NCBI GenBank assembly: GCA_029261515.1 | Contig: JAJDBE010000020.1 | Coordinates: 1 to 32,994 of the forward strand | Reading direction: 5' to 3' | From: Nitrospinaceae bacterium | Lineage (GTDB): Bacteria > Nitrospinota > Nitrospinia > Nitrospinales > VA-1 | DNA: 32,994 nucleotides | In this document: positions 2 to 30,511 of the stretch, piece by piece | Layout of the letters: every line of letters starts with the position of its first letter | How positions within the stretch are numbered: position 1 is the stretch's first letter | The notes under the pieces: model-generated | Seen by the model: only the letters and a program-made list of their open reading frames with translations | The model's database searches: none | What the model was told of the DNA's origin: nothing | Position numbers and translations under genes: made by a program

Positions 2-934
2 AAGACCAATAAAGAAGATCTAGAACGGATTGCAGATATCGCGAAACATCCGGGCGATATCCCTCCGCCCGTAACCAGAACGCATCCGGCAAAAGTGGTC
101 TACCGATTGACCGCGCAGGAAGTCGTGTCCACCCTAGCAGAGGGAGTGGAATTCATCTTCTGGACTTTCAATCAGACCGTTCCCGGCCCCATGCTGAGAG
201 CGCGGGTAGGGGATACGATTGAATTGACCGTCGCCAATCATCCGACCAGCACGCACGATCACTCCATAGACCTGCATGCAGTCACCGGTCCTGGGGGCGG
301 CGGCGTACTCACCCAGGTCAAACCCGGCGAGGAGAAAACCATTTCTTTTAAAGCGCTGCATCCCGGAGTTTATCTCTACCATTGCGCCAGTCCCAATATC
401 CCCTCGCACATCACCAATGGCCTGTATGGACTGATCGTGATTGACCCTGAAGACGGATGGCCGCAGGTGGACCGGGAATTTTATGTCGTTCAAGGTGAAT
501 TTTATACCCAGGGCGGAGTCGGGGAAAAAGGCTTTCAGGAATTTGCCCCTGCCAAAATGATGGCCGAGCAACCAGAGTATATAGTCTGGAACGGCAGGGT
601 GAAATCCCTTACCGGCGATAAATCCCTGCAGGCCGAACAAGGGGAAAACATCCGCATATTCCTTGGCAATGGCGGGGTTGCCAAAATATCCAATTTTCAC
701 ATGATCGGAGAAATTTTTGATAAAGTGTATCCGGAAGGGACGTTCGGTCACTCTCATCCCTCGGTTCAGACCACAATGATTCCTGCCGGAGGCGCGGCCA
801 TCGCCGAACTAAAGCTGGAAAATTCGGGAACCTATATTCTGGTCGATCATGCTTTGTCCCGGCTGGACCGGGGTTCCTACGGATTTTTGGAGGTCCGGGG
901 CAACCCGGTACCGGAACTATTACAGGCCAAGTAA
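2..934 (+). CDS. nirK: Copper-containing nitrite reductase NirK (5' truncated)
   Basis: Copper nitrite reductase, which reduces nitrite to nitric oxide in the periplasm. The frame is open from base 2, so the signal peptide and true start lie before the window and the internal GTG at 95 is not the start. Two cupredoxin domains are visible. The first copper motif (DHSIDLH, 257-277) supplies a type-1 His, the catalytic Asp and a type-2 His. YHC (377-385) supplies the type-2 His and type-1 Cys, and a further type-1 His is at 407-409. The second domain has FHMIGEIFDKVY with the catalytic His, and LVDHAL with the last type-2 His. The Cys-to-His spacing (C+8) matches the AniA-like class. The residue five after that His, normally the axial Met of type-1 copper, is Leu (CTG, 422-424). 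The MOSC gene starts 15 bp downstream. The family call is firm; activity with a Leu axial position is untested. Confidence 0.93.
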   Translation, partial: KTNKEDLERIADIAKHPGDIPPPVTRTHPAKVVYRLTAQEVVSTLAEGVEFIFWTFNQTVPGPMLRARVGDTIELTVANHPTSTHDHSIDLHAVTGPGGGGVLTQVKPGEEKTISFKALHPGVYLYHCASPNIPSHITNGLYGLIVIDPEDGWPQVDREFYVVQGEFYTQGGVGEKGFQEFAPAKMMAEQPEYIVWNGRVKSLTGDKSLQAEQGENIRIFLGNGGVAKISNFHMIGEIFDKVYPEGTFGHSHPSVQTTMIPAGGAAIAELKLENSGTYILVDHALSRLDRGSYGFLEVRGNPVPELLQAK

Positions 935-24926: not shown

Positions 24927-25829
24927 ATGCGTTTTCTTATTTTCACACTATTGACTCTGTTTGCATTATCCAGCCTGGGGTGCTCCAAAGACGAGGGCGC
25001 ATCCGAGAAAGTCGAAGAGCCTGCATCTCTTTCAGAATCACAGGAACCTGCAAAACCCACGCCTAAAGTGATCCCCGTGACCTTGTCTCCCGAAGATCAG
25101 GAAAAAGCCAAACTGGCTCCTGAAGGGATGGTGTTTATTAAGGGCGGATGTTTCATTATGGGCAATGACTATGCTCAGGAAGATGAAAAGCCCGAACACG
25201 AGGTTTGCCTGGATGATTTTTTCATGGACAAGTATGAAGTCACGCAGGCCCGCTGGGAAAAACTGATGGGAGCCAATCCTTCCAAATTCATTCATCCCGA
25301 CAACCCGGTCGAACAGGTCAATTTTTTCGACGCGCAAAGATTCGCGAAAAAATCCAACGGGCAGTGCCGCCTTCCCACGGAAGCCGAATGGGAATATGCC
25401 GCCAAAGGTGGATCGGATTCGCGCTATTACTGGGGAAACATGATGGACGAGTCATACGTCTGGTACGAAGACAATTCAGATGGGACCACGCATCCGGCAG
25501 GGCAAAAGCAACCGAATCAGAATGGTCGTTACGAAAAGATGGGAAATGTCTGGGAGTGGACGGAGGACTGGTATGAACCTTACTATCAGATCCGCGACAA
25601 GAAAAACCCCAAGGGGCCGGAAGCGGGTGAATATAAAGTCATCCGCGGCGGCGCCTTCGATTCTTCCGCCGGGGCGCTCAGAACCACAAACCGCATCTGG
25701 CTGCATCCAAAAAACCGCGTTTTCCCCAAAGTCACTACTTTTGGCCAGGCGATCAACGAAATATACAACTACATTGGATTCCGCTGCGCCAAATCCTTTT
25801 CCAGCCCGCCGGATAAGACTCAAGAATAA
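24927..25829 (+). CDS. SUMF1/FGE-sulfatase-fold lipoprotein
   Basis: 300-aa lipoprotein (FALSSLGC, lipidated Cys19) followed by a Ser/Glu/Pro-rich linker and a formylglycine-generating-enzyme-like (SUMF1) domain. The family blocks are GMVFIKGGCFIMGND, DDFFMDKYEVTQARWEKLMG, NPVEQVNFFDAQRF, CRLPTEAEWEYAAKGG, MGNVWEWTEDWY, VIRGGAFDSSAGALR and YIGFRCAK. The paired cysteines used by true FGE near the RGGxF block are not seen, so sulfatase activation is unlikely; ligand binding is more probable. It has its own candidate promoter and precedes the membrane/lipid cluster by 78 bp. Confidence 0.88.
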   Translation: MRFLIFTLLTLFALSSLGCSKDEGASEKVEEPASLSESQEPAKPTPKVIPVTLSPEDQEKAKLAPEGMVFIKGGCFIMGNDYAQEDEKPEHEVCLDDFFMDKYEVTQARWEKLMGANPSKFIHPDNPVEQVNFFDAQRFAKKSNGQCRLPTEAEWEYAAKGGSDSRYYWGNMMDESYVWYEDNSDGTTHPAGQKQPNQNGRYEKMGNVWEWTEDWYEPYYQIRDKKNPKGPEAGEYKVIRGGAFDSSAGALRTTNRIWLHPKNRVFPKVTTFGQAINEIYNYIGFRCAKSFSSPPDKTQE

Positions 25830-25907: not shown

Positions 25908-26357
25908 GTGCATCCCATCTTAAATTCAGTCAGAGGGTACAGAAACGTCTTAATAGTCCTGTTTTCTCTCTTTTGCTTCCGCGTAGCGGCCCAGGCGGTA
26001 CAGTTGATTTATCCACTCCCATTTATTCCAGCGTTTGCAGATTGGCATAGCGGGGCGTTGCCCTATGGGCTATTGCTCCTTTCTCAACTCATCATCATTG
26101 TATTGTGCCTGAAGGTCATATATTCATTCCGTGGGGACAGGATTTCTCCAAGCTTAAAGTCGGGTAAACTTTATCTGATCCTCGGCTGTTTATACTTTTC
26201 TGTCAAGATGGTCCGAATAATAGGGGGTTTTACTTTTGCAGCCGATGTGAGTTGGTTTCAGGCGAGAATACCAGCATTCTTTCACCTGGTTTTGGCATCC
26301 TTTCTTATCGTATTGGGATTTTTTCATTATAAATTCGGCAAAACTCCGCAAAGATAA
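25908..26357 (+). CDS. Four-TM membrane protein of unknown function
   Basis: 149-aa membrane protein with about four TM helices (about residues 13-33, 50-72, 86-106 and 121-142) and short loops. The first loop carries Pro and aromatic residues (YPLPFIPAFADWHSG). I see no recognised family motif. The frame begins at GTG 25908 and no better in-frame start precedes the first helix. It lies 24 bp before the hydroxylase gene and appears to head the tight cluster to 30046. A membrane partner of the lipid-type enzymes downstream is a guess from context. Confidence 0.6.
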   Translation: MHPILNSVRGYRNVLIVLFSLFCFRVAAQAVQLIYPLPFIPAFADWHSGALPYGLLLLSQLIIIVLCLKVIYSFRGDRISPSLKSGKLYLILGCLYFSVKMVRIIGGFTFAADVSWFQARIPAFFHLVLASFLIVLGFFHYKFGKTPQR

Positions 26358-26381
26358 CGGAACAAACCACAGGAACGGCAG

Positions 26382-27254
26382 ATGAAGAAAATAATCGCAT
26401 GCACCACGTACCCCATGGTGATGTCATTGGGCCTCATTTCGCACTATTGGATGCTGCATGGCGGATTTTCCATAAAAACCGCAACCTACACTCCGGTTAT
26501 TGTGGGAGCTTTTATCATCACGCTCATGGAATTAAAATTTTCCCATAGAAAAAAATGGTTGGCGGAAAAAAGCGACCTGTTAAACGACACGGTTTATATG
26601 GTTTTGGTGCAGGTTCTTCTTCCTAGGCTCTTATCGTTCTTTGTCGCCATCACCTTATTGAGGTCACTACAAAACAGCCAATGGATGGTGACTGGTTTTT
26701 GGCCGCACGCTTGGCCCCATTTTTTACAGGCGATGCTTATGATATTGGCCGCCGATTTCTTAAGGTACTGGTTGCATAAGTTGAGCCACGAGTGGCCTCC
26801 GTTATGGCGTTTGCATGCGGTGCATCATTCCCCACACAAACTCTATTGGGTCAATGTCGGACGGTTTCATCCTGTGGAAAAGGCCTTGCAATTCATATTC
26901 GACGCATTGCCGTTTATTTTGCTGGGCATTTCCGAAGAAGTTTTAGCTTTGTATTTTGTTTTTTATTCGATCAACGGTTTTTTTCAGCATTGCAACATCG
27001 AGTTACGCCTGGGATTCCTAAACTACATCATCAGTGGTCCCGAACTGCACCGTTGGCACCATTCCAAATTGGTTGAGGAAGCCAATCGCAATTACGGAAA
27101 TAACACCATTGTTTGGGATTTAGTTTTCGGCACACGATTTTTACCCAAGGACCGGGAGGTGGACGAGCTGGGTTTGAAAAACAGAAGTTACCCAACCGGT
27201 TTTGTGGATCAGCTCAAGACTCCCTTTCTCCATAAAAGAGCGGATTTAAACTGA
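26382..27254 (+). CDS. Fatty acid hydroxylase / sterol desaturase family protein
   Basis: 290-aa integral membrane diiron oxygenase of the fatty acid hydroxylase/sterol desaturase superfamily, which inserts oxygen into or desaturates lipid C-H bonds. The His boxes are present in the right order: HKLSH (132-136), HAVHHS (145-149) and HRWHHS (223-227), with a further FQHCN between them. Hydrophobic segments flank the boxes. Substrates of bacterial members include sterols, hopanoids, carotenoids and acyl chains, and cannot be read off. It is seven bases from the GH3 gene, so the two are almost surely co-transcribed. Confidence 0.9.
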   Translation: MKKIIACTTYPMVMSLGLISHYWMLHGGFSIKTATYTPVIVGAFIITLMELKFSHRKKWLAEKSDLLNDTVYMVLVQVLLPRLLSFFVAITLLRSLQNSQWMVTGFWPHAWPHFLQAMLMILAADFLRYWLHKLSHEWPPLWRLHAVHHSPHKLYWVNVGRFHPVEKALQFIFDALPFILLGISEEVLALYFVFYSINGFFQHCNIELRLGFLNYIISGPELHRWHHSKLVEEANRNYGNNTIVWDLVFGTRFLPKDREVDELGLKNRSYPTGFVDQLKTPFLHKRADLN

Positions 27255-27261
27255 TTTTTTT

Positions 27262-28932
27262 ATGCCCACGATACGAGATATCGCCTTAAATGCAATGGTC
27301 CCACTTCAGATGCTTTGGATCAAACATCGTCATTGGCAACCCTTCATTGAGAACACTCATTGCCCGCAAAAGGTTCAAGACAAACTGCTCAAAAAAATAC
27401 TCGCTCGCAACAAAAACACCCAGTTTGGGCAAGAACATAACTTTTCTTCCATCACATCCTACTCGGATTTTTGCAGCACCATCCCCATCAATACTTACGA
27501 AGATTTAAGACCGTATATTGAGAAGCAAGAAGAGGGGGAAAGCTCGGCCCTTAATTCAGAGCATCCGGAGATTTACGCTCAAACCAGCGGCACGACGGGA
27601 AAACCCAAGTACATTCCTATCCTGCCCAGCACCCTTGCCCAATTTAAAAAAATTCAGGCCCTGTTTTCCTATGCCAAACAAAAAGGAATTCCGTCCATTT
27701 ACAAAGGCCCAATGCTGATCATTGCAAGTCCCGAAGTGGAGGGTCATTTAAACGCCGGAAGTCCTTTCGGTTCCATGTCCGGCGTTCTGAAAAAATGTCT
27801 GCCCAGAGTTTTAAGGGGAAAATATTTTATCCCAGCGGAAGTTTTTGCAATTCAGGATTATCAGCTTAAATATTTGCTGATCGCGGCTTTCTCTCTGCAA
27901 AAAAAGAATCTCACCTTTATGGCGAGCGCGAATCCCTCTACCTTCTCCAGGTTGCTGGATGTCATTCATTCCCATGGAGAAATGCTTCTCTCTCTTTTTA
28001 AAAGCGGTGATCTTTCAACCCTCATTGAAGGAGAGGATAAAAATCGATTCGATTCCGTTCGCAATCAGCTTAAACCCGGCAGTAAAAGGCTGGATGAATT
28101 GAAAACCCTTTTTGAACTAAACAGGCCTCTTGCTTTTAAAGATTTTTGGCCTGATCTGGAAGCCATAGCGACATGGACCGGAGGAAGTTGTGGAGTGCTC
28201 ATCCCCAAACTCCAGTCCATTCTTCCTGACAAGACGAAAATTATTGAGATGGGGTATTTATCCAGTGAATTTATTGGAAGCATAAACATCGATGTCGTAA
28301 AAGGGATATGCCTTCCAACTTTCCAAGATAATTTTTTTGAATTTATTGAAATAGAGGATTGGGATAACCGGAATCCCCAACCTCTCACTCTGGATCAAGT
28401 GCAGGAAGGAAAAAAATACTATGTCCTGGTCACAACTCAAAACGGGCTTTATCGTTACTTCATAAATGACATCGTTGAAATTGGTCCCAAATTCAATCAA
28501 ACACCGTCCCTACAATTTGTACAAAAGGGAAGGGGGGTCACCAACCTTACGGGGGAAAAGCTTTACGAGACTCAAATTATTCAGGCTTTGAATAACGTGC
28601 AAAATAAAATAAATAGAGATTTTCATTTTTATCTGATGCTGGCAGATCCCGAGCAACTTCACTACACCCTCTACATCGAGTGCCCCCCATTCGATTTTTC
28701 GTTGCAGGATTTGTTGGAAGGACAGTTGTCCCAATTAAATATCGAGTTTGAAGCAAAACGTAAAAGCGCAAGGCTTGGTCCCACAAAAATCGTTCATGTC
28801 AATGAAGGAACTTTTGAAGCCTATAAACAATTTTGCATTGAAAATGGGCAACGAGAAGGGCAATTTAAGCTAGTCAAATTGCAATATACGAAGGATTGTT
28901 CATTTGATTTTTCACCGTATCTCTACCTATAA
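27262..28932 (+). CDS. GH3-family acyl-acid amido synthetase
   Basis: 556-aa member of the GH3 (auxin-responsive promoter/JAR1) branch of the ANL adenylating enzymes, which adenylate a carboxylic acid and join it to an amine, usually an amino acid. The three nucleotide motifs are present: QTSGTTGKPKYIP (from residue 107), MGYLSSEFIGS (the YxSSE motif), and NGLYRYFINDIV. N- and C-terminal parts are complete for the family. Bacterial GH3 proteins are common but mostly uncharacterised, so substrates are unknown. It starts 7 bp after the hydroxylase and ends one base before the enolase-superfamily gene. Base composition looks more AT-rich than in hisS or acs. Confidence 0.92.
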   Translation: MPTIRDIALNAMVPLQMLWIKHRHWQPFIENTHCPQKVQDKLLKKILARNKNTQFGQEHNFSSITSYSDFCSTIPINTYEDLRPYIEKQEEGESSALNSEHPEIYAQTSGTTGKPKYIPILPSTLAQFKKIQALFSYAKQKGIPSIYKGPMLIIASPEVEGHLNAGSPFGSMSGVLKKCLPRVLRGKYFIPAEVFAIQDYQLKYLLIAAFSLQKKNLTFMASANPSTFSRLLDVIHSHGEMLLSLFKSGDLSTLIEGEDKNRFDSVRNQLKPGSKRLDELKTLFELNRPLAFKDFWPDLEAIATWTGGSCGVLIPKLQSILPDKTKIIEMGYLSSEFIGSINIDVVKGICLPTFQDNFFEFIEIEDWDNRNPQPLTLDQVQEGKKYYVLVTTQNGLYRYFINDIVEIGPKFNQTPSLQFVQKGRGVTNLTGEKLYETQIIQALNNVQNKINRDFHFYLMLADPEQLHYTLYIECPPFDFSLQDLLEGQLSQLNIEFEAKRKSARLGPTKIVHVNEGTFEAYKQFCIENGQREGQFKLVKLQYTKDCSFDFSPYLYL

Positions 28933-28933
28933 A

Positions 28934-30046
28934 ATGAAAATAAAGCATCTGCAAATCAAGAGAATTGCAATTCCATTCAAACAGTCATTTGAGCATGCAT
29001 CCGCCAGCCGGTCTGAAACGGAGAGTGTCCTTGTGACCCTGGAATCTGAAAATGGCCATCTCGGGTATGGAGAAGGATGCCCACGCGATTATGTCACGGG
29101 CGAGTCCGTAGATTCCGCTATCGTTTTTTTTGAGAAACACAAAAACTCATTTAAAAACATTTTCGATCTTGCGGACCTGAAATCCTGGGTGACCGAGTTT
29201 CAAACTGATATCGACCTCAATCCGGCTGCATGGTGCGCGATTGAACTGGCAATTCTCGATCTGATGGGAAAGGAAAGCCAGCAATCCATAGAAGCACTAT
29301 TGTCTTTACCTCAATTAGAAGAAGATTTTTACTATACCGCCGTCTTGGGCATTAATAGTCTGAAAGGGTTTCAACAACAACTCGAAAGATATTTGAACTG
29401 GGGATTCCAGGATTTTAAAATTAAAATTTCCGGGAATCTAAAAGAAGACCATGAGAAAATTGGACTATTTCAAGCGATGCAGAATCCGTCCATCAAAATT
29501 CGTCTGGATGCGAATAATCTTTGGAAAAACTCCCGTGAGTCTGTCGATTATATTTCTGAATTGGATTATCCGTTTTCCGGCATTGAAGAGCCTCTACAAC
29601 CGAAGGATTTTCAGGGATTGCGGAAAATATATGATGCACTGAAAATCCCCGTCATTTTGGATGAAAGCTTTTTCAGGAAGGATCATTTTCAGCATATTCG
29701 AGAATCGCCAGAGGTCTGGGTCATCAACCTACGCTTATCGAAAATGGGTGGCATTCTGCGGTCTCTTTCTATCGCCGAGCAAGCCGAAAAAGAGGGATTT
29801 TCGATTATCATTGGGGCACAAGTCGGGGAAACGAGTATTTTGACAAGAGCCGCACTCACCATCGCAAATTCAATCCGGGATACTTTAATCGCTCAAGAGG
29901 GGGCATTTGGAACTCACCTTCTGCAATATGATATTACCAACCAACCGCTGATGTTTTCGAAGAAGGGGGTTTTATCACACGATGCATTTGCAGAAAAACC
30001 TGGTTTAGGCCTTAGTATTGATGAAACTCTGGTTGGCAAAAGTTAA
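28934..30046 (+). CDS. Enolase-superfamily epimerase/racemase
   Basis: 370-aa enolase-superfamily protein of the MLE subgroup, close to dipeptide epimerase (L-Ala-D/L-Glu epimerase) and N-acylamino-acid racemase. The start is ATG 28934, one base after the GH3 stop. Catalytic residues fit: the KxK motif Lys162/Lys164 (FKIKIS), metal ligands Asp192 (RLDANN), Glu218 (GIEEP) and Asp243 (LDES), and the second base Lys270 (LSKMGG). The N-terminal capping domain ends around residue 120. The reaction is alpha-proton abstraction and return on a carboxylate; the substrate (dipeptide, acyl amino acid or succinylbenzoate) cannot be decided from sequence alone. Confidence 0.88.
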   Translation: MKIKHLQIKRIAIPFKQSFEHASASRSETESVLVTLESENGHLGYGEGCPRDYVTGESVDSAIVFFEKHKNSFKNIFDLADLKSWVTEFQTDIDLNPAAWCAIELAILDLMGKESQQSIEALLSLPQLEEDFYYTAVLGINSLKGFQQQLERYLNWGFQDFKIKISGNLKEDHEKIGLFQAMQNPSIKIRLDANNLWKNSRESVDYISELDYPFSGIEEPLQPKDFQGLRKIYDALKIPVILDESFFRKDHFQHIRESPEVWVINLRLSKMGGILRSLSIAEQAEKEGFSIIIGAQVGETSILTRAALTIANSIRDTLIAQEGAFGTHLLQYDITNQPLMFSKKGVLSHDAFAEKPGLGLSIDETLVGKS

Positions 30047-30082: not shown

Positions 30083-30511
30083 TTAACGGCACTCGCTGCA
30101 AATGCCGAACATGTCCAGCTTGTGAGAGGTGATGGTGAATCCGTTGCGGGCGGCGACTTCTTCCTGAAATTTTTCAATCAGGGGATGATTGAACTCGATG
30201 ATCTTGCCGCATTCGGTGCAGATCATGTGGTCGTGGTGACCGTGCATGTATTTGTGCTCGTAGCGTTTCTGCCCGTCGCCAAAATCCAGTTCCGAGGCCA
30301 GGCCGCTTTGCGTCAACAACGCCAGGGTCCGGTAAACCGTTGCCAACCCGACCTTGGGTTCCGCGGCGGTGACCAGCCGGTACAAATCCTCGGCGCTGAC
30401 GTGCTCTTCGCAATCCAGAAACGCTTTCAGAACCGCCCGCCGCTGCCGGGTGATTTTAAGGTTGTTCTGAGTGATATAGTCTTCGAGAACTTCCAGTTCC
30501 TTGCTGGCCAT
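30083..30511 (-). CDS. fur: Ferric uptake regulator family protein (Fur)
   Basis: 142-aa Fur-family metalloregulator. The winged-helix domain covers residues 1-85, with the recognition region GLATVYRTLALLTQSGLA. The metal-binding region has HHDHMICTECGKIIEF and a C-terminal CSEC pair, matching the structural Cys4 zinc site of Fur/PerR/Zur. The regulatory-site residue that would separate Fur from PerR is not securely placed, so Fur is the most likely but not certain subgroup. A partial Fur-box-like dyad lies 15-29 bp upstream of the start. It is convergent with the enolase gene and 121 bp from the end of hisS. Confidence 0.87.
   Translation of the reverse strand: MASKELEVLEDYITQNNLKITRQRRAVLKAFLDCEEHVSAEDLYRLVTAAEPKVGLATVYRTLALLTQSGLASELDFGDGQKRYEHKYMHGHHDHMICTECGKIIEFNHPLIEKFQEEVAARNGFTITSHKLDMFGICSECR

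Follow-up and report, generated by a model that had tools for sequence, protein, structure and literature searches.

We judge the chance to be about even that the four genes at positions 25908 to 30046 of the window (the whole stretch of 32,994 nucleotides from a Nitrospinaceae bacterium that we analysed) are a cassette that has spread horizontally and serves to synthesise a modified N-acyl amino acid (an aminolipid). The genes of the cassette and the two genes that flank it are as follows.

MEM, 25908..26357, + strand: 149 aa membrane protein with four long helices (ORF, AF2 model).
HYD, 26382..27254, + strand: 290 aa putative di-iron type membrane hydroxylase, OlsE-like (PF04116, His boxes).
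GH3, 27262..28932, + strand: 556 aa putative acyl-acid amido synthetase, OlsH-related (PF03321/PF23571/PF23572).
ENO, 28934..30046, + strand: 370 aa enolase-superfamily enzyme, MLE-like (Pfam, alignment, AF2 fold match).
Left flank, outside the cassette, 24927..25829, + strand: FGE-sulfatase-domain protein, which marks the insertion site.
Right flank, outside the cassette, 30083..30511, - strand: Fur-like regulator, a family name taken from the sequence.

The open reading frames confirm that the four genes lie on the + strand with intergenic gaps of 24 bp (MEM/HYD), 7 bp (HYD/GH3) and 1 bp (GH3/ENO), as the original prediction had described. We take the ATG at 28934 as the start of ENO; the TTG at 28904 given by the ORF caller would overlap GH3. 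The earlier assignments of a His-box hydroxylase and a GH3 protein are upheld by Pfam, and the membrane protein, MEM, belongs to no Pfam family. The genome that bears the cassette is 3.25 Mb in size and the window is its contig C20. At the start of the window (95-934) there is a cupredoxin/multicopper-type ORF, judged by eye from the sequence alone.

The GC content of 25908-30046 is 43.0% in comparison with 49.9% in the remainder of the window, and equal-sized stretches upstream of the cassette never fall below 47.2%. In 18 of 29 relatives the FGE-domain and Fur-like flanking genes lie close together with no cassette between them; two of these relatives (G037 and G040) carry the cassette at another site. 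The distribution is patchy: the cassette is present in 4/85 genomes of a Nitrosomonas carrier's genus, and the ENO type in 7/399 and 6/395 genomes of two proteobacterial orders. No convincing target-site repeats were found at the insertion, a search for viral carriers found none, and the GH3 matches on plasmids are only 22-29% identical and are not of the cassette type. The low GC, the empty site and the patchy distribution mark the cassette as an accessory unit that was gained as a block and has spread horizontally. This agrees with the earlier suggestion of transfer, which had been made from an AT-richer composition.

We searched for the cassette in 60 relatives and, in a single scan, in 84,980 species genomes. 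GH3 is present in six of the 60 relatives (the window's genome included) and the ENO model matches exactly those six. The other five Nitrospinota carriers all have the four genes in the same order, with 46-66% identity. In the larger scan 37 GH3 loci were found, under the labels Nitrospinaceae, Nitrospirales, Nitrosomonas, Nitrotoga, Gallionellaceae, Thiobacillus, other Beta-/Gammaproteobacteria, Verrucomicrobia, SAR324, Poribacteria, Fimbriimonas, Halobacteriovorax and Colwellia; many of these records are metagenome bins, whose phylum labels should be read with some caution. HYD is found with GH3 in 36 of the 37 loci, and the order HYD-GH3-ENO is kept in 33/33 loci with a contig that extends past GH3 (the contigs of L022, L025 and L045 end at GH3 and were left out of the ENO count). 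HYD and GH3 are fused in a single open frame in 13 loci, and the GH3, ENO and HYD trees are correlated in patristic distance with rho of 0.89-0.92. The shared order, the fusions and the congruence of the trees support HYD, GH3 and ENO being a conserved, co-inherited pathway unit, and the recurrence of the order shows that the set did not arise locally by chance. The original prediction had proposed a search for conserved GH3-enolase pairs and had named separation of the genes in relatives as evidence against it; the pairs are found, and the genes are not separated, in 5/5 other Nitrospinota carriers and 33/33 long-enough loci. No universal extra partner gene was found beside the cassette; when the flanking ORFs were clustered, most of what emerged were wrong-frame shadows of the cassette's own genes.

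Two observations concern individual loci. The cassettes of L020 (SAR324) and L040 (Verrucomicrobia) are almost identical, and that of L040 has 39% GC within flanks of 60% GC; this is either recent transfer or mis-binning. In L047 (5965-8704, GH3 and ENO) and L023 (7641-8739, ENO) the genes are split over frames and are either pseudogenes or assembly errors.

To our knowledge, the majority of bacterial GH3 proteins lack an assigned product. The N, middle and C domains of the cassette GH3 score 199, 72 and 56 bits, all exceeding the curated Pfam cut-off of 23.6, and the nucleotide-binding motifs SGTT (109-112), GYxSSE (331-336) and RYFIND (398-403) are kept in nearly all of 38 sequences. In the PDB the cassette GH3 is nearest to plant GH3.15 and GH3.12, and plant GH3 enzymes conjugate hormone-type acids. 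The product could then be a small amide other than a lipid, formed for instance from an aromatic acid, with HYD acting on an unrelated membrane lipid. We consider this improbable, because the HYD-GH3 fusions bind the amide synthetase to an integral-membrane hydroxylase and because OlsH, the bacterial relative that has been characterised, works on fatty acids.

OlsH is a GH3 protein that makes N-acyl ornithine in Singulisphaera acidiphila (PMC12493201, JBC 2025). It is encoded in an operon with lipid-tailoring genes, as in the cassette, and it builds its N-acyl amino acid from a free fatty acid, ATP and the amino acid, a likeness that we propose for the cassette enzyme. On the basis of its family, its conserved motifs and this precedent, GH3 would use ATP to adenylate an acyl acid, fatty or other, and then join it to an amino acid through the latter's amino group. 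The cassette differs from the OlsH/OlsI pathway in that its GH3 scores 93.9 bits against NCBIfam OlsH and does not reach the equivalog cut-off of 620, and in that the core cassette has neither OlsG nor OlsI, having instead the OlsE-like HYD, MEM and an enolase-superfamily enzyme. No OlsI-like O-acyltransferase or alpha/beta-hydrolase was found in the core cassette of the Nitrospinota carriers and the genome-collection loci; alpha/beta-hydrolases are confined to side lineages (CocE/NonD hydrolases in L015 and L027, an S33 hydrolase in L154-L157). A mature two-chain aminolipid is less supported as the product, since the core cassette has no O-acyltransferase gene.

HYD has an FA_hydroxylase domain (PF04116, 106.5 bits in Pfam) and three His boxes, H132xxxH136, H145xxHH149 and H223xxHH227, which are conserved in 36-37 of 37 sequences. 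These features place it in the fatty acid hydroxylase / sterol desaturase superfamily. Its best NCBIfam model is the ornithine-lipid hydroxylase OlsE, which is of the same superfamily with the same His boxes and is matched over the full length with 195.4 bits. However, this score does not reach the OlsE equivalog cut-off of 475, and HYD is tied to or fused with GH3. OlsE reportedly hydroxylates C4 (gamma) of ornithine (Holzl 2018) and not the beta carbon. By analogy with OlsE the target of HYD is most likely the head group, and HYD would hydroxylate the same lipid on which GH3 and ENO act. Oxidation of the acyl chain, the role originally given to HYD, was an assumption, and the nearest named hydroxylase, OlsE, targets the head group. 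The window's own genome has a second, distant FA_hydroxylase-type gene (G000:C132:13224-14009; 102 bits with the HYD model).

The best named families, OlsE and OlsH, would also allow a plain ornithine-lipid pathway in which GH3 is OlsH, HYD is OlsE and ENO is an incidental neighbour. Consistent with this, OlsB-type PF13444 has no match in the window's genome (90% complete), so another N-acylation route would be needed. However, OlsH reaches 94 of 620 bits and OlsE 195 of 475 bits, the core cassette has no OlsI-like gene, and ENO is present in every complete cassette and is therefore not incidental. This pathway seems to us a poor candidate. The matches to OlsE and OlsH below cut-off are best read as leads to the chemistry, not as identifications, and scores so far below the equivalog cut-offs do not imply ornithine as the substrate.

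MEM has no family match in Pfam or NCBIfam profile searches, and a PDB fold search with its AF2 model (pLDDT 93.1) gave no match. The residues F22, R25, Q29, P41, Y53, Q60, G93, Y96, R103, W116, H126, L129 and A130 are invariant in 25 sequences. MEM is found in 24 of the 37 GH3 loci, is fused to HYD in one open frame in two loci and sits downstream of ENO in two other relatives. The two MEM-HYD fusions suggest that MEM probably partners HYD, as a membrane protein that would assist it.

ENO has an MR_MLE C-terminal domain (MR_MLE_C, PF13378, 107.5 bits in Pfam). The K162xK164 motif on strand 2 and the three carboxylate metal ligands D192, E218 and D243 are invariant, and with the domain they place ENO among the MLE-like members of the enolase superfamily. 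The original prediction had called ENO a KxK/Lys-type epimerase; the KxK motif on strand 2 stands, but the position of the strand-6 catalytic Lys is Arg267 in 34/34 cassette enolases compared. As controls we used further members of the enolase superfamily, taken from the same genomes and from related ones; in these proteins this position is Lys in KxK-type members and ordinary enolases, Asp in MR-type members and Arg in none. The Arg-type enolases form one clade with a support of 1.0 in a 34-tip tree.

The AF2 model of ENO (pLDDT 92.9) has as its best PDB fold match 2p88, an N-succinyl Arg/Lys racemase (TM 0.88), with dipeptide epimerases next. Among the best NCBIfam models for ENO are OSBS (menC) and dehydratases, none of which reaches its cut-off. 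ENO is similar to the N-succinylamino-acid/N-acylamino-acid racemases and L-Ala-D/L-Glu epimerases in fold (TM 0.83-0.88), in KxK and in the Asp/Glu/Asp ligands; it differs in the strand-6 Arg, in having EG and not DxD on strand 8, and in its neighbour, which is GH3 and not murein hydrolases. Identity to these enzymes is approximately 26-28%.

A murein (L-Ala-D/L-Glu) dipeptide epimerase, the identity that had been named as counting against the original prediction, was rejected. Three annotated dipeptide epimerases have the strand-6 Lys and a strand-8 DxD (DFD/DLD), whereas ENO has Arg and QEGAFG. The dipeptide epimerase gene of B. velezensis, taken as a control, lies between an LD-carboxypeptidase and a C40 peptidase, whereas ENO has no murein-hydrolase neighbours and lies beside GH3 in all complete carriers. 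Because the strand-6 Lys is invariantly Arg and the DxD of murein epimerases is absent, ENO belongs to an uncharacterised enolase subfamily.

Enolase-family racemases work with a Lys/Lys pair (PMC8142540). ENO has no second Lys on strand 6 and so falls outside the two-base MLE-type racemases and epimerases (AEE, NSAR, NAAAR); ordinary two-base racemisation is doubtful because a K/R pair replaces Lys/Lys. This bears on a pathway in which GH3 makes an N-acyl L-amino acid, ENO as a two-base epimerase gives a D-configured head group and HYD then hydroxylates it. The nearest solved folds (the N-succinyl Arg/Lys racemase and the dipeptide epimerases) and the invariant KxK and metal ligands agree with such a pathway, but the second Lys of the racemases is invariantly Arg in ENO and is kept by the KxK homologues compared, and we regard it as unlikely.

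The nearest solved fold suggests an N-acyl amino acid as the substrate of ENO. ENO would bind the carboxylate of this substrate on Mg2+, with K164 on strand 2 taking the alpha-proton, and Arg267, which from the alignment should face the substrate, would stabilise the enolate in place of the second lysine base. The residues are observed; the roles of K164 and Arg267 are what we infer from them. Arg267 might also act as an acid/base, which would keep epimerisation possible. We put elimination or another one-base reaction at slightly less than an even chance, somewhat likelier than epimerisation, which we hold to be possible but rather doubtful.

Four genomes of the Colwellia carrier's order (G563, G587, G607 and G641) have an Arg-type ENO followed by GH3 (L154-L157). 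Upstream of the pair there is an S33-type alpha/beta-hydrolase and a membrane Ser/Thr kinase, and three of the four loci have a PP2C phosphatase downstream, an RND pump upstream and also a LysR-like gene. This arrangement is possibly a form of the pathway under kinase regulation. A search of the four genomes gave no cassette-type HYD; two have weak paralogues and two have none. Since this second architecture is without a cassette-type HYD, the GH3-ENO pair is the core, with ENO independent of HYD. The place of HYD in the pathway is not fixed, as it is missing from these Alteromonadales-type clusters.

These loci also bear on a route in which the head group receives a beta-hydroxyl from HYD and is then dehydrated by ENO, so that an N-acyl dehydroamino acid results. 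OSBS-like syn-elimination fits an active site with one Lys. The K-only active site of ENO would suit this reaction, OSBS (menC) and dehydratases are among its best NCBIfam models (below cut-off), and the HYD-GH3 fusions put hydroxylation beside ENO. However, the four genomes retain GH3-ENO without a cassette-type HYD, and OlsE reportedly acts at C4 (gamma) of ornithine (Holzl 2018) and not at the beta position. Such a route is in our estimate quite unlikely. A thalassotalic/stieleriacine-type pathway to N-acyl dehydrotyrosine was rejected. The clusters for stieleriacines, thalassotalic and kyonggic acids (PMC12479983) likewise give bacterial modified N-acyl amino acids, but they use a NasY synthase and oxidative desaturase (NasY, ThiF and nitroreductase proteins) and, unlike the cassette, have neither GH3 nor an enolase.

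Accessory genes are found in some lineages. In Halobacteriovorax and Colwellia (L042:8695-11567 and L044:8568-11405) an MMPL-family transporter and an ICMT-type methyltransferase directly follow the fused HYD-GH3 and ENO. ICMT enzymes methylate carboxylates, and this neighbour would be in keeping with a product whose carboxylate is free. In L013 an RND pump is directly upstream of the cassette, and in L025, L026 and L044 one lies at a greater distance upstream; a CocE/NonD hydrolase directly follows ENO in two distantly related carriers (L015:8722-10557 and L027:6672-8477). The RND/MMPL exporters and the carboxyl-methyltransferase-like gene suggest that in these lineages the product leaves the inner membrane.

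The catalytic motifs of GH3 and HYD are intact, and the N-acyl-amino-acid/lipid theme of the predicted lipid-amide pathway is retained in the OlsE- and OlsH-like families and the N-succinyl-Arg/Lys racemase fold. We tentatively suggest that GH3 and the K/R enolase may represent an undescribed class of aminolipid pathway, in which the single-lysine ENO remodels the alpha-carbon to give a new lipid structure, for example with a dehydro or cyclised head group. In the open-licence literature searched, we found no earlier description of the set of four genes, of its fusions, of a GH3-enolase pairing or of the K/R subfamily. The principle of GH3-made bacterial lipid amides is already published (OlsH, PMC12493201), and the original description of the pathway as undescribed holds, within the open-licence literature searched, for the four-gene set and not for such amides in general.

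In summary, the cassette is a well-bounded, horizontally spread system in which natural fusions show which enzymes cooperate. It occurs in nitrite and ammonia oxidisers, and at least two carriers are named (Candidatus Nitrotoga sp. BS and Colwellia sp. 75C3). The K/R enolase subfamily, with its altered catalytic pair, offers a direct test of the chemistry of the superfamily against its two bases. Should the product prove to be a lipid that is exported or stays in the membrane, ocean nitrifiers would have a candidate new aminolipid.
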